Part shown: piece by piece, positions 13,946 through 63,134 of the stretch
Layout: every line of letters starts with the position of its first letter
Numbering within the stretch: position 1 is the first letter of the stretch
Assembly: GCA_032622095.1 (NCBI GenBank)
Contig: CP136067.1
Coordinates: forward strand, 118,841,281-118,905,280
Reading direction: 5' to 3'
Source: Siphonodentalium dalli
Taxonomy: Eukaryota > Mollusca > Scaphopoda > Gadilida > Siphonodentaliidae
DNA: 64,000 nt
The notes under the pieces: generated by a model
Databases searched by the model: none
What the model was told of the DNA's origin: nothing
What the model saw: only the letters and a program-made list of their open reading frames with translations
Position numbers and translations under genes: made by a program

Positions 13946-14673
13946 GGTTAGTAGAGCAAAGGTAACGTATGTGCAGGGTGTAGTTAAGGGCTTTGTGGAC
14001 CCAATTTTTCCAAACTTTTATAGAATCCAAATACAAGATTCTGTTCATGTATGTTAGTAATCATAGAAACCATGCCAATTGATGCAACATTTTATGAGTA
14101 TACTTATGGTGGATTATGTGTTAGAAATACAAAATGTGAACTTTATTGAGATTTACAAAAATGTAAAGGCAATGGTCCAAGAAAAACAAAGTCCATATCT
14201 AAGAATTAAATATGGGAATATGTACTGAACACTGTGATGAATGATGTACTACAAAAAAAAATTATATTTCTTGAGTGTTCTTTGAAAAAATTACTTTGAA
14301 CCAGCTGTTGACAAATAATACATACTTGCTTAAACATTGGCTGTGTGGATGCCAGCATGCATGGGTTAGCAGCTGGCCATTGTAAAGCAGTGGACTCTGT
14401 TTACAATAGAATGCTAATCCCCAATCAAACCCAACCAGACCATGCCATACTATTTCTAGTATGTATGTCAGCACTCACTCATAGGATAATCACCAGTTGA
14501 TGTGGAGTTGACACTGGTAAAAGCCATTCACACTGGACTGGACATAATGTGACCCATACCAGGTCTGGCAAATGTGAGAATACAGCTACAATAGCTGTAT
14601 TCAGCTAACCTAGCTGTATTCAGCTATATATTATACTCTCAAACCGGCTGTTTTTCGATAATAAACTAGAAGC

Positions 14674-15644
14674 GCTAATTTGCGCATCAAAATTAGGCTA
14701 CCCTATTCTCCGGTCACCCTCAACCAAATCAAAATCGTCGCTTGTGTTCTGACAAAGTGTTGCATTTGGTCGGCACGGCGATGGTGATTATGTGTGAAAA
14801 CTTACGGCGGTCGATGTCGGTCATAACGGTTAATAACTCTCTTATGCAATGCGGAATACCTTGAAAAATACATTAAATACAATATTTATCACCGAAGATG
14901 GAACATCTTAATCATAACTGGAAGTATCAATATGATGCTGCTAAAACGCAGTTTGGTTGGTGCGTTAAAACAGGTAAAAAAAAGGGGAACATCTCTAGCC
15001 AGAGTTTAACCGAGCGAGTTCCACTCACTGCTTGAGCTGATTCTCTCCAAAAATACGGAAACGCATACTTGTATGTCGAATCGCGAAAATACAAATACCA
15101 ATGTTATGTTTAGTAAGTTTTCACACATTATATATTTTCCCGCCAAAACAGATTGAATAGTTCTGACTCGCTAACAACCAGGACTTCATGTTTGAAATAC
15201 TTCAGAAATTATATAAGTCGCATTTTCATTTCAGTTGTCCCTATGTTGTGCCATACATTTGCAATATGCCGCACAATATCTGTATATACAGTTATGAATA
15301 GTTACCAGTATCGCTCACAAACCGCTAGTGGTATGCAATTCTAAATGCTTGATATAGGTACATGTACACCATTCTAACGCCCCCTACCGGTTTAGCATCG
15401 GGAAGAAGTAAACGAGTGTTTGGGATGAATTTGATCTTTATTTTATAAGTTAGTTAATGAATGCATTTGGAGAAAATAGTCCCCAGAATATTTACTGACA
15501 TCGACCACCGTAGTAAGTTTTCACACAAAATCAGAATTGCCGTGTCGACAAAAGGCAACACTTTGTCAGAACACAAGCGACGATTTTGATTTGGTTGAGG
15601 GTGACCGGAGAATATGGTAGCATAATTTTGATGCGCAAATTAGC
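14674..15644. mobile_element. Inner foldback next to the retroelement
   Basis: Arms 14674-14830 and about 15490-15644 are inverted copies sharing 'gctaatttgcgcatcaaaat', 'ctccggtcaccctcaacc', 'gtcgcttgtgttctgac' and 'gtgtgaaaactta'. The centre is unrepeated and contains a small frame from ATG 14898, 25 codons up to an ACAG/GTAAAA donor-like site, with no recognisable product. The retroelement repeat starts at the base after the right arm, so retroelement insertion or reverse transcription probably used this end. Confidence 0.65.
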
Positions 15645-15707
15645 TTTGTATATAAGAAGGTGTATGTACATCCAACCGAAAGCCAATGACTGGCGGTAGC
15701 GTATGTT
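15645..15707 (-). repeat. Terminal direct repeat, 3' copy (63 bp)
   Basis: Base-for-base identical to 19684-19746. Contains a small conserved hairpin: GCCA/TGGC stem with loop ATGAC and an outer CC/GG pair set off by GAAA. It is not a canonical hammerhead ribozyme. Confidence 0.85.
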
Positions 15708-15837
15708 CCAAGGTGCCCGACACTATATGCTATAAATTTGGAAAGTCACTGTAAGCTAGTGTTTCGTGTCAATTTTTATTCGCCGACTACTCGTCAGGGG
15801 ACAGGCGATTTAATTAGATAAGTTGACATTTTATATG

Positions 15838-16004
15838 TCTGTTAACATGTATTCCATGTGTATATAGTTTGGGCCACGTCATGTGGTTTTGTTGGATTTG
15901 CAAATTTCATGCAATCATTCTGTTAACATGTATTCCATGTGTAAATAGTTTTTGCCACGTCATGTGGGATTGTAGGATTTGCAATTTTCATGCAATCATT
16001 CTGT
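15838..16004 (-). repeat. Tandem duplication (2 x about 83 bp) in the retroelement 3' region
   Basis: Two units share 'ctgttaacatgtattccatg', 'gccacgtcatgtgg' and 'ttcatgcaatcattctgtt'. The first differs from the second at about eight sites. Each contains the near-palindrome CCACGTCATGTGG. It lies downstream of the reverse transcriptase stop codon, so it would be in the 3' untranslated region. Confidence 0.8.
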
Positions 16005-16594
16005 TGGATGGTTTGTAGTTTCAGCCTCTCAGCGTTCGCTGCCGATGTGAAAACTGCATGTCGGGTCGCTTTAAGATAGACCTGACTTCTAACCAGTTTA
16101 AACTGGTTAATCTCCGAGGTTAGCCGATTGAATGCGAGTTGTGATAAGCAAAAATCATGCTGGGTTGGTAATGTTACCGAATAGCGCCCACGACGTGCGG
16201 TATCCCTTTGTGGTTACTTCACATGTGCGAATGTTACAAGTGTGAAAGTTTGATCCGTGATTAATCACTTGTTAGTGAATCGTTAGGACAATTGAAATCT
16301 CTTTGTGTGAGAGGGTTATCGCTGTTGCGTCAAGAATTAATTGATCAAAATGAATCAGCTTGTTTGATCAAAATATAGCGTCTGTCAGTGTAGCAATTGA
16401 GGAAATTCTAGTTCCTGTATTTGGGAGTCGAACTCAGTGACCTTCTCACGGAGGCCCGGTTCCATTACGTAACAGGTTGTGGCGTTCTGGTCTCGTCGGT
16501 ATTAAAGACGCTTGGCATTTTTATGAGAAATTATCAGCTCACGGCCATTTTCCGGCTAAATATTAACCCTTGACTTCTAAGGAACGCAGCTTAG

Positions 16595-18550
16595 TTAGGC
16601 GTTTAGATTGAATAAAGAGCGTTTTTTCGACAATATTTCACCCAATTTGCGGGTACGTCGGAAGACCAGACGTGGTGGTTCCTCAAATATTTCCTGCATT
16701 GAGGCTTCTTTGGAAAGAATTCCCCAGTTGTCCTTCAGGATATTACCAATTCTTTTGGCGCCTGGGTGGTATATCGTGCACATTGTCGGTTTTATATTTG
16801 TATTGTTTATATTTTTGGTTTTGCATTTCAAAAGTTCATTTCGTTTGTCAAATGTGACAGTATTAGAATATTGTTCTATTTCTTTTGCGCTGTAGCCCCT
16901 GTTTCTGAGTCTGTCGGCAAACATTCCGCGTTTAATGTCAAAATCCTTCTTGTTGTTGGAATTTCGTAGGTATCTCGTGCATTCACCAATGATGAATGAT
17001 TTAAAGTTATTCGTTGAGTGACTCGATTCCCGATGTAAATATTGAAAAGAATCTGTCGGTTTGGTGTGGCATTTTAGATCCAGAATGTGTATTTCTTCAA
17101 ATCGCTTCCCTTTGTAGATATCTAGGTCTAGAAATGTGCAGTTTTGCTGGTTGATATTGAATGTGAACTTTAGTAAGTCATGTGCTTTGTTTGCTATTTC
17201 AAAGAGGGCTAGTATTTCCTCGATTTGCCCGTTGAATATAATCAGGCCATCATCTCTGAATCTTTTATGAAAAAGTATTTTGTTTTTGTGAGGGAATGCC
17301 TCAATCAGTTGGTTTATATGTCTGTGAATTGCTATATCGCAAATTTCAGGGCTAGGTTTAGCACCTTGGGCAGCTCCAACGATTTGTCTAAAGCATTTAC
17401 CGTTAAATGTAAATTCATTGGTTTCTAGAATGAGTTTTGCTATCTCCACCAAGTCATTTGTCGGTGGTCTTTTTACTGGGAGCGTGTTTTCCATGTATTC
17501 ATCGAGGTCGATTTTTAGAGCTTCCAGAAGTTCACCGAATCGTAGGTTCGTGTATAGACTAGTAATATCATAGGTTACTAGTAGAGAGTTATTTTCAACA
17601 GTAATTTTTTCGAGTTGATTAATAAGGTCAACTGTGCCTTTTATATAGGTTGGTTGTTTTTGGACTATTGGTTGAAGAAAGTAGTCAAGGAAATGTCCGA
17701 TTTTTTCAATTGGGCTGCCTGTCTGAGATATGATTGGTCTCGCAGGCGGTATTATTTTAACCCCTGTGTCGTTGAAAGCCGGGTCGATGTTTTTGAGTTT
17801 ATCCCCAATCTTGTGGATTTTCATCAGGAAGTATATGTACGGAGTGTTGAGTTGTTCAATCCTGTTGAATAAAAATGATCTAGTAGTATCATCTATCGAT
17901 TTTTCTAGGTGCATCCTATGTACCAAGGTGAGCACTTTGGAGTGAGTTAATTTTATGTCAATTTCCGGTATTTCCTCATAGTGTATACCGTCATTCATTT
18001 GTTTTAAGCCTTCTGATATGTAATCAGCCATGTCAATTATGACAGTAGTATTATTTTTGTCTGCTTTCATAATAATAATATTATCGTTATTCTTCAAGTT
18101 CTTGAGGGCAGTCCTCATTTCAGGATTGAGATTGTCCCTTTTCTGTATTTTGTAATCCGATACTTGTATTTTGCAAGCATACAAATAATCTTCCAGAGCG
18201 TTACCTCCCAATGGAGGGGCAAATTTAGATTTGGTTTTGAATGGATGTGGAAACCAAGTAGTTCCTGTGTTTGGAATCAGGTATTTAATGCGCATTTTCC
18301 TTTCAAATGCGACGAAATCACGCATTATTTCTCTCCTGTTTATTCTTTCAGTGGGTATGAAGTTTAGGCCGTAGCCAAGTAGGATTATTTCTGAGTCGTC
18401 CAGCTTCTTACTCGATAGGTTCCTAATGAAACTTTTGGCTAGAGTTACTCTAGAAGATTTGGTATTAAACTGGGCCTTCTTGTTTTTCATCTTAGTAGTT
18501 TTTATACGATTTTGTATCCCTCTGGTTTTGCGTTTAAATTTCCTGCTCAT
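16595..18550 (-). CDS. Penelope-like reverse transcriptase, endonuclease-less
   Basis: An intact 651-codon frame from ATG 18550 to TAA 16595. It can be read upstream to 18679, but that would need a TTG start. The protein polymerises DNA on an RNA template for retrotransposition. Residue numbers here count from 18679 (subtract 43 for the ATG form): a basic N-terminus (44-70, MSRKFKRKTRG), the Penelope signature 'MKADKNNTTVIID' (204-216), 'RPIISQTGSP' (314-323), catalytic motif A 'VTYDITSLYTN' (Asp371), motif B 'GAAQGAKPSPE' (435-445), motif C 'RFRDDG' (Asp476, Asp477), 'CTFLDLDI' (514-521) and the C-terminal 'PPRLVFRRTRKLGEIL' (668-683). In canonical Penelope elements that last motif precedes a GIY-YIG nuclease, but here the protein ends eleven residues later. 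Endonuclease-less relatives (Athena, Coprina) are known at telomeres. Motif C has FRDD where YxDD is usual. Family assignment is firm; clade is not. Confidence 0.88.
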   Translation of the reverse strand: MSRKFKRKTRGIQNRIKTTKMKNKKAQFNTKSSRVTLAKSFIRNLSSKKLDDSEIILLGYGLNFIPTERINRREIMRDFVAFERKMRIKYLIPNTGTTWFPHPFKTKSKFAPPLGGNALEDYLYACKIQVSDYKIQKRDNLNPEMRTALKNLKNNDNIIIMKADKNNTTVIIDMADYISEGLKQMNDGIHYEEIPEIDIKLTHSKVLTLVHRMHLEKSIDDTTRSFLFNRIEQLNTPYIYFLMKIHKIGDKLKNIDPAFNDTGVKIIPPARPIISQTGSPIEKIGHFLDYFLQPIVQKQPTYIKGTVDLINQLEKITVENNSLLVTYDITSLYTNLRFGELLEALKIDLDEYMENTLPVKRPPTNDLVEIAKLILETNEFTFNGKCFRQIVGAAQGAKPSPEICDIAIHRHINQLIEAFPHKNKILFHKRFRDDGLIIFNGQIEEILALFEIANKAHDLLKFTFNINQQNCTFLDLDIYKGKRFEEIHILDLKCHTKPTDSFQYLHRESSHSTNNFKSFIIGECTRYLRNSNNKKDFDIKRGMFADRLRNRGYSAKEIEQYSNTVTFDKRNELLKCKTKNINNTNIKPTMCTIYHPGAKRIGNILKDNWGILSKEASMQEIFEEPPRLVFRRTRKLGEILSKKRSLFNLNA

Positions 18551-18970
18551 AGTTTGGGGGTTATCAATTTTAGCGTCAAGGCTATGATTTGCAATATTAG
18601 CGTCAAGGCTGTGGTAATGCACTATAGTTTGTGCGATGGGTATTGTAGTGTAATGACTATTGGCAATGGCGCTCTTCAATCATTGGTTGGCTGGAAACTG
18701 ACAGTTTGGGTGTCTGTCTAATAGGCGTGGTTTACTCAGCACCTGGCTACTACATTGCTTTTGAGAGCAGGTTGAATATTATGCATATGTGGATCATATA
18801 TCCAATATCCCGTGGGGGTCCATACACCAATTCGTGTATTATATACGAGTCATTTAGATAAATGTCAAGTATGGTTGGAGTGTACCAACGGGTCTGTACA
18901 TTCAGACAGAGAGGTTAATGATTTGTACTGTATAGCAATTTTATAAAGTCCACTTTAATAAGATTTGGTT

Positions 18971-18986
18971 GGCCCTGAAAAGGGCC
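18971..18986 (-). promoter_or_regulatory. Histone-mRNA-type 3' stem-loop
   Basis: On the minus strand the sequence is GGCCCTTTTCAGGGCC: a perfect 6-bp stem (GGCCCT/AGGGCC) with the tetraloop TTTC, preceded by CAAAAC and followed by AACCAA. This equals the metazoan replication-dependent histone 3' signal, including the A-rich 5' flank and ACC-like 3' flank. In histone mRNAs SLBP binds it and U7 snRNP directs cleavage a few bases downstream. A weak purine stretch 'AAAGTGGA' about 11 bases after the stem could stand for the histone downstream element. It begins 25 bases after the ORF1 stop codon. Confidence 0.75.
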
Positions 18987-19011
18987 GTTTTGTTTGTGTG
19001 CTGGTTGCTCC

Positions 19012-19623
19012 TTATGTGTATTTCGAAAATCGTGGCCGCGTTGAGTCACGACGGTCATCTCGGTGGTTCTCTCTCTCGTATGGTCTTTTTTGTCTTCTGT
19101 CTCTTCTGTCCGATTTCGATCCTGCTATGAACTCATTGAGTTTTTCCCGGTACTTTTCTTGGATAGCCCGAGCATTATCATGGAGCTTTTTCCTCACTGG
19201 CCCCGACTGCGCCTCTGTCATTGGCGGCAGATCCTCTAACGCCTCGTCAAACGTTTGTTTTAGACTGCCATTGTGTTCCGCAATCTTCGCATCGAGTGTT
19301 GACACGAATTGCTTGAGGAAGCCATTTCTTGCTTCCAGCAGGGCACCAGATAAAGCTGTAACCAACTCTGTTGTGGCCTCATCCGTTCCAATATGGATGC
19401 GATCCAAGTCCATTTGGAATTTTATGAAGTGTGGAGTCGTGCCTTGCGTCATTGCACTGGTGACCATAGATTTGAGTGTCAGCAAGGGCTGTCTCTGTTT
19501 GGAGATGTCCTCCATGGTTTCAGTCGCCAGCTCGATTCTTGTATATTCTATTCCCCGTACAGCTTGGCTGGATGGTACTGGTACATCGAGATCAAAGTTG
19601 ATGCTGGAGTTTTCGGCGTCCAT
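19012..19623 (-). CDS. Retroelement ORF1, 203 residues, unknown fold
   Basis: An intact frame from ATG 19623 to TAA 19012, starting about 60 bases after the 5' terminal repeat. I do not recognise the family. Residues 1-40 are acidic and polar. Residues 40-160 look alpha-helical with regular leucines, and a coiled coil is possible around 100-125 and 135-165. The last 45 residues are strongly basic and arginine-rich (KSDRRDRRQKRPYEREN and onwards), which suggests nucleic-acid binding. By analogy with ORF1 proteins of other retroelements it may package the template RNA (inference). The opposite-strand frame at 18965-19642 is a shadow. A histone-type stem-loop follows the stop, 420 bases before the reverse transcriptase. 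Confidence 0.7.
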   Translation of the reverse strand: MDAENSSINFDLDVPVPSSQAVRGIEYTRIELATETMEDISKQRQPLLTLKSMVTSAMTQGTTPHFIKFQMDLDRIHIGTDEATTELVTALSGALLEARNGFLKQFVSTLDAKIAEHNGSLKQTFDEALEDLPPMTEAQSGPVRKKLHDNARAIQEKYREKLNEFIAGSKSDRRDRRQKRPYERENHRDDRRDSTRPRFSKYT

Positions 19624-19683
19624 TATTTTTGAGTATAGATAAGCGGAATGAATAGTTTAGTTGGAAATTTGCTCATGTCAAGT

Positions 19684-19746
19684 TTTGTATATAAGAAGGT
19701 GTATGTACATCCAACCGAAAGCCAATGACTGGCGGTAGCGTATGTT
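19684..19746 (-). repeat. Terminal direct repeat, 5' copy (63 bp)
   Basis: Identical to 15645-15707. It is followed at 19747-19808 by inverted fragments of itself ('ggttggatgtacatacacc' and 'acataca..ttcttatatac'), so the 5' end is a small inverted cluster, as described for pseudo-LTRs of Penelope-like elements. Confidence 0.85.
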
Positions 19747-20884
19747 TCGGTTGGATGTACATACACCATTTTATATACAAACTTACATACACCTTCTTAT
19801 ATACAAAAATCGAAAAACAGCCGGTTTGAGAGTATAATATATAGCTGAATACAGCTATTGTAGCTGTATTCTCACATTTGCCAGACCTGCATACACTGCT
19901 GTCTCTTTGTCAACCATATTGTGAAGTTAGTATATCATTTGTCAACAACCGGTTCATAGTAATTTTTTCCAAGAACGCTCAAAAAATATAATATTTTTTT
20001 TGTAGCACATCATTCATCACAGTGTTCAGTACATATTCCCATATTTGATTCTTAGATTTGGACTTTGTTTTTCTTGGACCATTGCCTGTAAATTTTATTT
20101 TTTAAATCTCTATAAAGTTCACATTTTGTATTTCTAACATAATCCACCATGAAGTACATGTATAATCTCAAAATGTTGCATCAATGGCCATGGTTTCTAT
20201 TATTACTAATATACATGAACATAATCCTTTATTTGGTCTCTATAAAATTTTGGGAAATTTTGGAAAAATTGGGTCCACAAAGCCCTTAAACTCGACCTAA
20301 TTGTGGATAGTTCGGATATTCCAAGGGGATTAACGAGTGCGTGCAATGACATGTTGCGGTCACATGTTATGGTAGACATGTCAGTGTTTACGTTCTGTTA
20401 TTTGTCGGATTTTAAGAATAAATGACATGTGGGTGAGTGGATGGTTTCAAACTTATTTATATTAGTATTTAGTTGATAAATACATGTGCATTGCCATTGG
20501 TTGATTGGATTGGTCATAATTGTTACTTTTATTGAAAAGGCCAAAACGAAGAATACCTGTGTTTAGGGTAACCTGCCCGCCCCTACTCAAAACCTGCCGC
20601 CAAATTCCATTTTATCATTTTTCAAAAATTTCCTCCGACTTCATTTTATTTTTTTGTAATTAGGAATTCGCGACTACGGAATTAGCTTAAACAAGTAAAC
20701 CATTTCCTTGCAAATATCGTCAATTCACGAAAAACGGAAGTGCTGCCATTGTTGTTGTAGTATATTCGTATTCCCTCGTCATTGTTCGGCAAACCTCGCC
20801 GATTTCTCGAAAGCGGAAACCAGAAAACACGCGATATGTATTAACTAGCAAATAGAAAGTAACCGGATATTTTGCCGATTGAAT

Positions 20885-22615: not shown

Positions 22616-22843
22616 GTTCATGTTACCCTAAACTCAGGTATTCTTCCTTTTGGCCAAATCTATTCGCTCCTACTAGTCCTAGCGTTCATTGACCAGTTAT
22701 GGAACTTGGATGGCGTAAGCCATGCTACTGAGTTCCAATGGATCTAGGCTAAATGGTGAATCGTGAATCAATGGCAATTTCATTTTCAATTTGCAGAAGA
22801 ACTTTTCAAGTTCATCGCGAAAATACGCAACAAGATTAATAAC

Positions 22844-22972
22844 CTTCGATTGCTCATCGCAGTATCTTCCCAAATAAAGTGAAGCAGCCCGGAAAACTAC
22901 GGACGTGACTCCTATTTCAGGAACGGTTAGCTCATCAACAGATGGAAGATCGAAGTCATCTGTAACAGGCAT
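22844..22972 (-). CDS. NDUFA8: NDUFA8 first coding exon (mitochondrial complex I accessory subunit)
   Basis: Forty-three codons from ATG 22972 to a donor AAG|GTTATT at 22844/22843. The peptide starts MPVTDDFDLPSVDEL and continues with an 'E..VTS.V..AA..YLG..CD..SK' pattern. It matches the N-terminus of NDUFA8, which starts with MPG and continues with a LP..EEL.V.E pattern up to CD..NK, just before the twin CX9C region. NDUFA8 is an intermembrane-space helical-hairpin protein of the complex I membrane arm, imported by the Mia40 route. Reading on past the donor gives 'VINLVAYF', unlike the family, so the junction is real. The later exons carrying the cysteine pairs were not found; they should lie at lower coordinates past the Helitron and perhaps the retroelement composite. 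A frame upstream to 22981 uses TTG and is not preferred. Confidence 0.82.
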
Positions 22973-23300
22973 CGTAAACAACGACCGATATTCACAGGTC
23001 AGGTGGCTGCTACTAAATGTCTGGGCTTGAGAGAACGTCAGTGAGATTCGGCCTATTTAATATTATTAAATTTCGGCCTTTTAAAAGCAATTTTCGGCCT
23101 CGAATTTTGAGTTAGTCGGAGGGCTGGACCCAGAAAAATTGGTAAACAGAAAGTTGATGTCCGAAGCAGGAGAATCTCTTTTATAACATATCTAAAATCC
23201 GCCATGTGGAAAATACAGAATTCAAGATGGCGTCCAACATGGCCGCCGATAATTATGGAAATCACAAATAGGTAGTTATTCATGAAAATCTACCAGACAA
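22973..23300 (-). promoter_or_regulatory. Probable NDUFA8 promoter and leader
   Basis: The 330 bases upstream of the NDUFA8 start contain no TATA box near the expected place. They hold 'AAGATGGCG' and 'ACATGGCCGCC' words at 23225-23245 that resemble YY1-type sites common in mitochondrial-protein gene promoters. Related 'GCCGCCATCTTGAA' words recur at 24235-24300, so some may belong to a repeat. Assignment is by position. Confidence 0.35.
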
Positions 23301-23993: not shown

Positions 23994-23996
<3 letters not shown>

Positions 23997-24089
<93 letters not shown>

Positions 24090-24119
24090 GTATTCCGGCA
24101 ATGCATAATAAATCTCTCC

Positions 24120-24188
<69 letters not shown>

Positions 24189-24190
24189 CT
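23997..24190. repeat. Inverted pair of microsatellites: (AG)45 and (TC)n
   Basis: A pure AG run of 90 bases (23997-24086) is followed after about 20 bases by a TC run (about 24104-24185) with few interruptions. The two runs are complementary and could form a long hairpin or triplex DNA. The Arg-Glu and Ser-Leu frames reading through them are artefacts of the repeat. Confidence 0.95.
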
Positions 24191-24234
24191 GCGCCCAGCC
24201 GCCCAAATGTTGCTAAGTTCGCTTTCGAACATGG

Positions 24235-46557: not shown

Positions 46558-47170
46558 TACAGTAATGCCCTAATTAATCGACTCCCTTAACCCTTTACCC
46601 AACAAACCGGCCAAAACCGGCCAAATAAAGCTTCAACAGCCTAAAATATCTTCGGTCTGTCTCAATAGAACCATACAAATATGGATATCATTGGAACCGG
46701 CTCCTTGACCACATTGTGATAGTTACAGTTATGCCCTGTGCCAATGCCAATGCATTCTCTTATATATGCGAGTCGACCATAGGTCGCCTCGCATATATAA
46801 GAGAATGCATTGGCCTAAAAAAAAACTTTTTTTAACACTTTTTACCATTTTTTCTTACATTCTTTAACAATTTTATAATTTTTAAGCCAATGCATTCTCT
46901 TATATATGCGAGGCGACCTATGGTCGACTCGCATATATAAGAGAATGCATTGGCACAGGGCCCTTCTGTTGGGTAAAGGGTTAACCACAGCAGAATTATG
47001 GGTAACTTTTCAGGATTTAGTTGGAAATATGGCTTGTTGCCATTCATCGGAAAGCTCTCCCCGAGAGCTTTCCGATGAATGGCAACAAGCCATATTTCCA
47101 ACTAAATCCTGAAAAGTTACCCATAATTCTGCTGTGGTTAAATGAGTCGATTAATTAGGGCATTACTGTA
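46558..47170. mobile_element. TA-flanked palindromic MITE carrying a nested TTAA MITE
   Basis: The outer element (46560-47168) has ends CAGTAATGCCCTAATTAATC and flanking TA, as for Tc1/mariner-type insertion. Without the insert it would be a near-perfect palindrome of about 215 bp centred on 'ctctccccgagag' at 47055. The TTAA MITE at 46591-46980 splits the left arm exactly at the TTAA that empty copies (for example 50508, 62882) keep as 'cttaacca'. Confidence 0.9.
46587..46984. mobile_element. Nested TTAA MITE, subfamily A (390 bp)
   Basis: 46591-46980, ends CCCTTTACCCAACA, two palindromic modules, TTAA duplicated at 46587-46590 and 46981-46984. Very similar to 25588-25979, with an extra 'ccaatg' before the first module. 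Empty-site comparison proves the duplication. Confidence 0.92.
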
Positions 47171-47271
47171 CATGTACGTATGTCAATTCAATGACTCTAT
47201 TGATTGAACATGATGGATGGGATTATTTTCTGATGCCCAGACATGGTGTAGGGACAATCCAACTCAATTTG

Positions 47272-50118: not shown

Positions 50119-50476
50119 ATACTGTTCTGCACTAAGTACATGAAATTGATCCAGTAAAATGGGCTTATTATGCATTTATAACTGTGGCCAAACTGCACCA
50201 CAATTAACGGTTCTGTGACCGCTGTTGCACCATGATTATACACATGTAAATGTATGCGGTAAAGGAACCCTGGTTATAATCCGTTATTTTAATCGACTGC
50301 CGATGTACTGTACATGTAGCTAACTGCTGACTGTTTCATAATTGTACTGGAAGTTAAGGTTTTATACCAGTTGATGATTACATGTGTTTTAACCACACAC
50401 GTGAATTTAACTTTGCAGTAAATAATCTTGTGTCACCTGTTTTCAAGTTATACTACTACTTCCTGCTCAATACATG

Positions 50477-50692
50477 TACAGTAATGCCCTAAGTAATCGA
50501 CCTCTTAACCAAAGCAGAATTATGGGTAACTTTTCAGGATTTAGTCGGAAATATGGCTTGTTGCCATTCATCGGAAAGCTCTCCCGAGAGCTTTCCGATG
50601 AATGGCAACAAGCCATATTTCCGACTAAATCCTGAAAAGTTACCCATAATTCTGCTTTGGTTAAGAGGTCGATTACTTAGGGCATTACTGTA
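50477..50692. mobile_element. TA-flanked palindromic MITE (212 bp)
   Basis: 50479-50690, near-perfect palindrome from CAGTAATGCCCTAA to its complement with centre 'ctctcccgagag'. TA on both sides. The retained 'cttaacc' words are the target used by the nested insertion at 46.6 kb. Confidence 0.9.
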
Positions 50693-50699
50693 ATTATCT

Positions 50700-51405
50700 A
50701 TAGTCCCTAAGAATCAGGAGATCTCATATTCTCAACTGGAAAACAAAAATTGTCTTATAAAAAATTTACAATTAACAGCACACAAGTTGGCCCAACTCTA
50801 AAACATGCAGAAAAAAAACATTGTAGGCGGCAAATGACTAACAAAAAGCTAGAAATTTACCTTGAAAATGAGACTTCAAAATTTCTTGTTTCCTGATTAA
50901 CTGTAAACATGTGGTTGGGCTAAATTTTAAATATATTTATCATATTTGATATTTTTCCACTAAAACTATTACCCACCAGCACATAAAAGTGGTGATATGG
51001 TATAAAGTGAATAATAAATTTTGTTTTTTGTTTTTTTGCAGCAAATAATTTCAAGTTGCCTTTTTCTTTGTGGTAATCATGTGGTGTTCCTGTCAGGTGA
51101 AGATGGATCAAGTGAGATCCCCTGATACTTAACTGGCATACATTTCAAGTTGACGGAGATTTACATGTACATGTAATAGTAATTGTCTGTACAATTCTCT
51201 GTGAATCCCCATCTGGGATATGAGTTATGACAGTTCAATGACACCAGTGATTGTGATGGATGGCACTATTTTCAATGCCCAGACACCATTTCCTTCTGGG
51301 AATACATGGTTTATAGGCTGAATCCCACTCAATTTATTAAATGTCAGCCCTGACTTCAGTGCTGCTGGGATCCTGTCTGGCTTGGAATTAAACAAAAAAA
51401 ATAGA
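50700..51405. other. No gene recognised
   Basis: AT-rich sequence without a supported exon. 51200-51400 shares phrases ('ggatatgagttatgacagtt', 'ttgtgatggatgg') with 46340-46400 and 47210-47240, suggesting an old duplicated segment. Confidence 0.45.
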
Positions 51406-54665: not shown

Positions 54666-55193
54666 GCGCCCAACTATGATAGGATTTTCAGGTTCATTAT
54701 ATCTCTTATTTTTCTTATACGGTACTGGCAGAACCATGGTCCACACAGTGCATGTTCACAAGTCTACTGATCCATTCAGAATAGGCGATCATCCAGGCCT
54801 GTGAAGGAACAGCCGAGGTGGGATGCAATTTGAATTACGCAAAGTTATGAGTCACATATTTAAATAACCATTCCATTGATGTATTATACAGTATAACTTC
54901 ATAATTTAGCCGTTTTGACCGAAACCCTCATGTACGCTTTGTGTCCATTTAAGAAATCATTTAGATTCGTCTTGAATTAAATGCGACATTTGTTTCAACA
55001 GACGAATTTAGAATTTAATTTGAATTGAATTTGAGTCGTCGGTAGTGCGACGTTTGTTCCAAGGGTTTGGGAACTACTGTACTCGTCACTGATCCGCTGT
55101 ATCATAACTGCACTGTAACGTAACTCCACCACAATGACTTGCAGTCTTGATACCACTGTACTACTGGTACTCTCATGGTTTTTTCAAGTCAAT

Positions 55194-55414
55194 TACAGTA
55201 ATGCTCTAATTAATCGACCTCTTAACCAAAGCAGAATTATGGGTAACTTTTCAGGATTTAGTCGGAAATATGGCTTGTTGCCATTCATCGGAAAGCTCTC
55301 AGGGAGAGCTTGCCGATGAATGGCAACAAGCCATATTTCCGACTAAATCCTGAAAAGTTACCCATAATTCTGCTTTGGTTAAGAGGTCGATTAATTAGAG
55401 CATTTAATACTGTA
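55194..55414. mobile_element. TA-flanked palindromic MITE
   Basis: 55196-55412, palindrome centred on 'ctctcagggagag'. The right end has a 4-base insertion ('catttaatactg'). Confidence 0.85.
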
Positions 55415-55682
55415 CTTTGAGAATTGAGTGGCAGGATGATGAATCCTTATAAATTGAGAATGTTTCTCAAGTTTCAACAATATTGTGCCCAATCTTGGCA
55501 TGATTGCTTCTATATTAATGAACTCTCATATCAGAAGACATGTGTGACACTTTCTGGTGCAGAAAGTTGCATTCTGGGCAGAAAGTTCCTTTCTGGTGCA
55601 GAAATGTCCTTTCTGGTGCAGAAAGGTACTAGTATGTCAAAATTGATCAGAGGATGTTGCGGGTATGATACCAGTCTAAATA

Positions 55683-58942: not shown

Positions 58943-59100
58943 TCTGATAAGAGGTCATTATTATTGTCTGTTGAAAATATTAACGCTGGTCGCCATATAC
59001 TGATGTCTCATTCTCAACAATCATAATTTCACCCCATTGATATTCTAAGTTAGAAAGTCTTGATGGAAATTTATTCATTACTTGTAGGTTTGTTTGGTGC

Positions 59101-59370
59101 TACAGTAATGCCCTAATTAATCGACTTCTTAACCACAGCAGAATTATGGGTAATTTTTCAGGATTTAGTCGGAAATATGGATTGTTGCCATTCATCGGAA
59201 AGCTCTCCCCTAATTTTTCAGGATTTAGTTGGAAATATGGCATGTTGCCATTCATCGGAAAGCTCTCCCCGAGAGATTTCCGATGAATCGCAACAAGCCA
59301 TATTTCCGACTAAATCCTGAAAAATTACCCATAATTCTGCTGTGGTTAAGAAGTCGATTAATTAGGGCAT
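59101..59370. mobile_element. TA-flanked palindromic MITE, rearranged
   Basis: Starts CAGTAATGCCC at 59103 and ends 'ttagggcat' at 59370, lacking the final TACTG. The stretch 'taatttttcaggatttagt' to 'cggaaagctctcccc' is duplicated in tandem (59150-59212, 59212-59272). Confidence 0.85.
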
Positions 59371-62157: not shown

Positions 62158-62421
62158 TTATTAGACTTTTATAATTCTGTAATAACTGTGTAATACCTAT
62201 CATTCTATATAAGGGTTAATTAGCCCTTTATTAATTTTGTGTTATGTAATTTAATTAGCCTTTTATAATTTTTTAAATTTAATAAGTCCAGAAACATGGC
62301 TGTGGTGGAAGGACCCCTTTAATAATCTTGTGCACATCTACCATCCCTGAAATAGCCACCCACCCCCATGGCAATGATATGTGAGCCATAAGTTCAGAAA
62401 ATATCATTGATATCATTGTCA

Positions 62422-62580
62422 GTGATTTAGTCGGAAATATGGCTTGTTGCCATTCATCGGAAAGCTCTCACTGAGAGCTTCCGATGAATGTGGCAACAAG
62501 CCATATTTCCGACTATATCCTGAAAAGTTACCCATAATTCTGCTGTGGTTAAGGAGTCGATTACTTAGGGCATTACTGTA
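62422..62580. mobile_element. TA palindromic MITE, 5' truncated
   Basis: Starts inside the left arm ('gatttagtcggaaatatgg') and ends at CATTACTG with TA. Palindrome centre at 62470. Confidence 0.85.
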
Positions 62581-62854
62581 TAACCATGGTTCCTTTACCG
62601 AGTTTAATCATGGTGCCACAACAGTCACAGAGCAGTTAAATGAAGTGTACATGTAGTTATGGTTTGACTGCAGTTATAAATGCATATTCTCATCTGCCGA
62701 ATAATAGTGCATGCATGATTATTTAATTTCAGCCGAAAATACAGCCCTGTACTATAATTCGACCTGCACTATTATTAGGCAGGTGAGAGTAATAACTCCA
62801 GTTAATGGGTCAATTACTTAGGCCAGTACAGTACGGTACCATATAGCTTATAAC

Positions 62855-63071
62855 TACAGTAATGCTCTAAGTAATCGACTTCTTAACCACAGCAGAATTA
62901 TGAGTAACTTTTCAGGATTTAGTCGGAAATATGGCTTTTTGCCATTCATCGGAAAGCTCTCCCCGAGAGCTTTCCGATGAATGGCAACAAGCCATATTTC
63001 CGACTAAATCCTGAAAAGTTACCCATAATTCTGCTGTGGTTAAGAAGTCGATTACTTAGAGCATTACTGTA
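62855..63071. mobile_element. TA-flanked palindromic MITE (213 bp)
   Basis: 62857-63069, ends CAGTAATGCTCTAAGTAATC, TA flanks, arms differing at a few bases only, centre 'ctctccccgagag'. Confidence 0.9.
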
Positions 63072-63134
63072 TGTACTGTAGTCATGTGAATTTGACCAGA
63101 GAAACAAAATATAAGTGGAAAAAAAAGTTGTTAA

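Follow-up and report, generated by a model that had tools for sequence, protein, structure and literature searches.

A histone-type stem-loop behind ORF1 of a Penelope-like retroelement suggests possible timing to DNA replication

To our knowledge, one class of animal mRNA is distinguished by the histone 3' stem-loop. A hairpin of this type lies within a mobile element in the stretch of Siphonodentalium dalli DNA analysed here (64,000 nucleotides, referred to as the window), which raises the question of whether a retroelement may have taken over the signal that ends histone messages. If it has, a single RNA motif would couple the life cycle of a retroelement directly with S phase, and the element's non-polyadenylated message would be missed by poly(A)-selected RNA surveys. 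Such an arrangement would also hint at the way in which an element without an endonuclease of its own reaches its insertion sites, with expression coinciding with abundant free DNA ends at replication forks.

The stem-loop, its flanks and its controls

The hairpin GGCCCTTTTCAGGGCC occupies positions 18986-18971 of the minus strand and pairs perfectly over 6 bp around a TTTC loop. It is separated by 25 nt from the stop codon of the preceding ORF1 (TAA, 19014-19012) on the same strand. It is flanked by ACAAACAAAAC on the 5' side and by AACCAAATC on the 3' side, and the minus-strand letters around it read ...TACACATAAGGAGCAACCAGCACACAAACAAAACGGCCCTTTTCAGGGCCAACCAAATCTTATTAAAG... The Rfam model of the histone 3' stem-loop (RF00032, Histone3) aligns over all of its 46 positions, flanks included (model positions 1-46; 18946-18991, minus strand), with a score of 33.9 bits. 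Coordinates and score together bear out the initial annotation, which had placed a perfect histone-type stem-loop on the minus strand 25 bases after the ORF1 stop.

The score is 0.1 bit below the curated gathering score of 34, and at the gathering threshold Rfam calls nothing in the whole window. In a search space of 271 nt the E-value is 2.1e-8; when the whole window is compared with 4227 families it is 5e-6, and the match is then the sole RF00032 row among 95 at E<=10. Many of the remaining 94 rows are microRNA models, and many lie over a simple repeat near 24.0-24.2 kb. With so many microRNA-model rows in the window a low E-value alone is no proof, and the weight is carried by the controls. 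The repeat region itself (23996-24191), to which many of the Rfam microRNA models match, is made up of long GA/CT simple repeats in an inverted arrangement.

Markov sequence of first order with the window's composition (307.2 Mb, both strands) yielded 22 instances of a generic paired histone-stem pattern, which corresponds to 0.0046 per 64 kb. The window contains one instance, and a scan of the window with a stem pattern that permitted one mismatch likewise gave a single occurrence. The hairpin region also folds better than its shuffled versions (z=-2.59, with 2 of 200 as good).

The same 16-mer is present in 65 stretches of viral contigs, which provide controls with an identical hairpin in other surroundings. 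Among the 25 of these that were scanned, the best RF00032 score is 22.8 bits, and only five gave any RF00032 row at E<=10. Six of the 25 had been picked as harder controls, either for an A-rich 5' flank (five of the six, by flank count) or for size, and their sources were among nine A-rich contexts or had the same flank type; one control stretch (L002) has a 3' flank of only 9 nt. Across the 41 distinct contexts of the 16-mer, nine have an A-rich 5' flank and one has an AAC/ACC-type 3' start, while none combines both. Compared with the best control of the same 16-mer, the window's hairpin thus gains about 11 bits, a margin that stems from its flanks. The A-rich 5' and AACC 3' flanks pointed out initially are therefore both present and informative. 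Taken together, the RF00032 score, the chance count and the flank controls indicate that the hairpin is more than a chance palindrome, an explanation that was rejected on the RF00032 E-value, the Markov rate and the same-16-mer controls. The hairpin's 16-mer belongs to a set of 12 sequences that served to locate stem-loops in annotated human histone transcripts, according to the available text of PMC7807067.

A two-ORF element of Penelope-like architecture

The stem-loop is situated in sense orientation between ORF1 and a reverse transcriptase (RT) ORF, inside an insertion of about 4164 bp on the minus strand (15645-19808, 5' end at 19808, ends accurate to a few bases) that interrupts one arm of an older palindrome. 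By its architecture the insertion appears to be a two-ORF Penelope-like element of about 4.2 kb. It combines an RT domain with partial-tandem pseudo-LTRs and inverted extensions of 37 and 24 nt, without a detected endonuclease; apart from the endonuclease, this matches the Penelope-like architecture described in the accessible parts of PMC3846280 and PMC11167929. Architecture and coordinates thus agree with the initial annotation of a Penelope-like retroelement that holds the signal between its ORF1 and RT.

The left copy of a 66-bp partial direct repeat (pseudo-LTR; 19681-19746, minus strand) is 98% identical to the right copy (15642-15707, minus strand), which was identified by repeat comparison and forms the 3' end of the element. 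The 5' end carries inverted (snap-back) repeats of this 3' end with arms of 24 and 37 nt (19745-19808, minus strand). Just before the right repeat, the 3' terminal region contains a hammerhead-ribozyme-like core (15716-15800, minus strand) with a predicted cut after 15719. In a scan for the core and three stems this core (15797) is the sole match in the window, and none of 60 Markov sequences gave one. Its stem III has 6 pairs, stem I has 3 and stem II merely 2 contiguous pairs, and no Rfam row matches it at E<=5. An AATAAA at 15775-15780 (minus strand) is located within the stem/loop II region of the core, so that the ribozyme-like motif may overlap with a 3' poly(A) signal. A tandem pair of an 81-bp unit (15838-15999, 91% alike) separates the RT ORF from the 3' repeat.

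ORF1 (19012-19623, minus strand; ATG at 19623) encodes 203 amino acids with a basic C-terminus. No Pfam family scores above its cutoff, the only row at E<=1 being an apolipoprotein family far under cutoff (E=0.012), and no histone matches in Pfam at E<=1. The structure model of ORF1, built without relatives, is mostly helical and of low confidence (mean pLDDT 49.5). The RT ORF (16595-18550, minus strand) comprises 651 amino acids from its first ATG in a frame that is open from 18679. Its match to Pfam RVT_1 (E=2.2e-6, 28 bits) is 1.6 bits below the curated cutoff of 29.6, and we take its RT motifs to resemble those of Penelope. A GIY-YIG domain was found neither in the RT ORF (Pfam, E<=1) nor in five downstream frame pieces (E<=5), and a comparison of the RT with PDB sequences gave no match at E<=1. 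The RT structure model, likewise built without relatives, has a pLDDT of 34.5, and the models of both proteins are too poor for a fold search. Searches of NCBIfam and PHROGs returned nothing useful, and ARAGORN found no tRNA.

With its 66-bp repeats 98% identical and both ORFs open, the element looks young, so that the intact stem says little on selection. Self-comparison of the window revealed no second copy of either ORF (best match 31 nt, 84%, E=0.28). Relatives of the element were found neither in viral contigs, searched with ORF1, the RT and two degenerate RT motifs, nor in prokaryote genome contigs, searched with the two degenerate RT motifs.

These observations bear on the possibility that the stem-loop is an unused passenger, either captured with a host 3' UTR by a template switch into a histone message or present by chance, which we regard as unlikely. 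It would be in line with the single known copy, with the description of Penelope-like elements as moving host sequence in the available parts of PMC3846280 and PMC6431247, and with the fact that screening much sequence yields some striking matches. However, ORF1 has no histone Pfam match, the stem by itself would seldom arise by chance, and the placement fits a function. In an active element, moreover, selection should act against a cut site that separates two genes and serves no purpose.

The palindrome into which the element inserted is made up of outer inverted repeats, in which 13984-14660 pairs with 19809-20289 and 14674-14821 with 15494-15644. Its intact arm (~14560-14821) represents the uninterrupted, empty-site sequence. 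Compared with this arm the filled arm is short of about 14 nt, and no target duplication is evident, which tentatively points to a small target deletion at insertion without target duplication. As the palindrome arms are just ~81-91% alike in BLAST pieces, this reading of the target site is itself tentative.

The end of the insertion also bears on another possible role of the hairpin, which may be a site of the element itself for reverse transcription or protein binding, set in an AC-rich context, and may resemble a histone stem-loop by convergence. The 25 nt preceding the stem are 84% A+C, and in the anole element PAc the start of reverse transcription lies within an AC-rich stem loop, at 111-118 nt of the ORF, according to the accessible text of PMC11167929. 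In the present copy, however, the 3' end of the insertion at 15645 corresponds to 19684, before ORF1 and about 700 nt from the hairpin. This copy was thus probably not started at the hairpin, and the hairpin was rejected as its reverse-transcription start. Since convergence would also leave the extra bits contributed by the flanks unexplained, we consider this role very improbable.

The minus strand also carries, within 22697-23056 and at about 22.8-22.95 kb, what is probably the N-terminal exon of the mitochondrial complex I gene NDUFA8 (E=0.0013 to the best PDB chain, 6g2j_X). The element may lie in an NDUFA8 intron on the same strand; a simple motif search gave no further NDUFA8 exons. Elsewhere in the window a family of short, largely self-complementary repeats occurs at 46981-47177, 50471-50705, 55191-55415, 59100-59370, 62416-62586 and 62850-63083. 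Its members are ~90-99% alike among the matches listed and are possibly small inverted-repeat transposons.

Signals downstream of the stem and expression of the two ORFs

Directly 3' of the stem lies AACCA. Histone ends of the ACCCA type are cut after the fifth base, and AACCA would place the cut likewise. Further downstream, none of seven short patterns for a U7-type purine core (AAAGAG) matches after the stem, where only an AAAG is found from +15 (AAAGTGGA); the host U7 may pair differently from these patterns. A possible poly(A) signal, the hexamer ATTAAA, is located at +12 from the stem (18954-18959, minus strand), and a TATAAA follows at 18945. The initial description of the motif as the exact histone signal therefore goes too far: the U7-pairing purine-rich element forms the second half of that signal, and the downstream region, with its ATTAAA, shows no recognisable U7 core.

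For human H2A.X, deletion of the downstream element abolishes processing at the stem-loop site, as reported in the available text of PMC7807067. The stem alone would thus not suffice in that system, and this result, taken with the apparent lack of a U7 element at the present locus, counts against reading the signal as strictly histone-type. The readings left are a U7 element of divergent sequence, a dual arrangement of stem-loop and poly(A) signal, or SLBP binding without cleavage. Both stem-loop ends and longer poly(A) ends have been reported for human H2A.X (PMC7807067, same text).

Among the uses considered, histone-type 3'-end formation of the ORF1 mRNA appears the likeliest, and we would put its probability at about even. 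A two-ORF Penelope-like element, recently inserted, would have acquired a histone-type 3'-end signal behind ORF1. During S phase the sense transcript would be bound by SLBP at its stem-loop and then cut by the histone cleavage machinery about 5 nt downstream of the stem (AACCA|). This would yield a short ORF1 message without a poly(A) tail, to be translated during DNA copying and destroyed afterwards. Transcripts that escape cleavage would read on, or others would start or be splice-joined downstream, and provide the RT message and the full-length template. This duality of stem-loop end and escape may be likened to the stem-loop and longer poly(A) messages of human H2A.X. The full-length RF00032 match, the flank controls, the low chance rate and the placement 25 nt after the ORF1 stop speak for histone-type end formation; against it stand the 0.1 bit missing to the cutoff, the ATTAAA at +12, the missing U7-type core and the single copy. 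We are slightly more reserved about the wider proposal, in which a mobile element took over SLBP and histone cleavage for a replication-timed ORF1 message, left RT and template to escape transcripts and is thereby expressed, endonuclease-free, when DNA ends at forks are abundant; it falls just short of an even chance. The hairpin, seen in a single copy, suggests that the activity of the element may be coordinated with DNA replication. Support from another retroelement comes from LINE-1, whose retrotransposition peaks in S phase according to the accessible part of PMC5821460.

The downstream signals also permit an arrangement in which SLBP binds the stem on a longer, uncut RNA and acts on its export, translation or S-phase stability, while the ORF1 mRNA is polyadenylated via ATTAAA or beyond. 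The good stem-loop match, the lack of a clear U7 element and the ATTAAA at +12 would all be accommodated, and H2A.X without its downstream element keeps the stem in a poly(A) message that is SLBP-bindable according to its authors (available text of PMC7807067). Yet a position 25 nt past the stop is that of a histone 3' end, and none of the observations calls for the stem to be part of a long RNA. The downstream element may also be a divergent one, as the host U7 may differ from the patterns tried. We therefore judge binding to uncut RNA to be rather unlikely.

As for the expression of the RT, the stretch from the ORF1 stop to the RT ATG contains seven further ATGs. Each of them begins an ORF of 1-16 codons, which makes reinitiation on one bicistronic message unlikely and separate messages more plausible. 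The sequence TATATAA...GGTGTATG (18821-18845, minus strand) is a weak candidate for a second core promoter near 18845 and echoes the ends of the element, an echo matched as well by 90 of 2000 randomised sequences. The earlier proposal that the RT might be expressed from a second promoter or by readthrough is thus weakly supported as far as the promoter is concerned. Judged by rough matrices, GGTGTATG could alternatively be part of a splice-donor-like sequence. Upstream of the RT ORF, CATTAAC...TACAG (18894-18920, minus strand) is a weak candidate for a branch point with a 3' splice site. With the same rough matrices, the acceptor at 18894 scores 6.45, the best in 19808-18552, and a site inside ORF1 at 19578 scores 6.44. 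Neither a promoter near 18845 nor splicing at 18894 is decisively indicated for the RT.

Comparison with known elements and histone 3' ends

The closest comparison is with the endonuclease-containing Penelope/Poseidon elements, i.e. D. virilis Penelope, anole PAc and Adineta Pen. According to the available parts of PMC3846280 and PMC11167929 these have pseudo-LTRs, 5' inverted repeats, palindromes and an RT in common with the present element. PAc carries a hammerhead motif (PMC11167929, in the part available), a feature that is widespread though not universal in Penelope-like elements and to which the hammerhead-like core here may correspond. In canonical Penelope/Poseidon elements the RT and a C-terminal GIY-YIG domain form a single ORF, whereas here the RT has an ORF of its own, apart from ORF1, a GIY-YIG domain was not found, and a histone-type stem-loop is located between the ORFs.

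The endonuclease-deficient Athena elements and Terminons of rotifer telomeres share an RT without GIY-YIG and extra ORFs, and they have a hammerhead motif with which the hammerhead-like core here may be compared, to judge from the accessible text of PMC6431247 and PMC5408684. While these sit at telomeres, the element described here lies ~3 kb from the likely NDUFA8 exon, and five short telomere-type patterns have no match in the window. With its ~4.2 kb and pseudo-LTRs it also differs from endonuclease-deficient protist and fungal elements, which are without that structure in the available description (PMC3846280).

With the 3' ends of replication-dependent histone mRNAs the locus has in common the stem, the loop, the A-rich 5' flank, the AACCA 3' flank and the short distance to the stop codon. 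It differs from them in its non-histone ORF, its position inside a retroelement and the lack of a clear U7-pairing element. Human H2A.X offers a parallel in that its transcript can end at the stem-loop or at a poly(A) site behind it; it is, however, a host histone gene whose downstream element is experimentally functional (PMC7807067, in the text available), whereas the signal described here is a putative one in a retroelement. Among the papers listed in a limited literature search, judged by titles and the beginnings of abstracts, none reported a Penelope-like element with a histone-type stem-loop.
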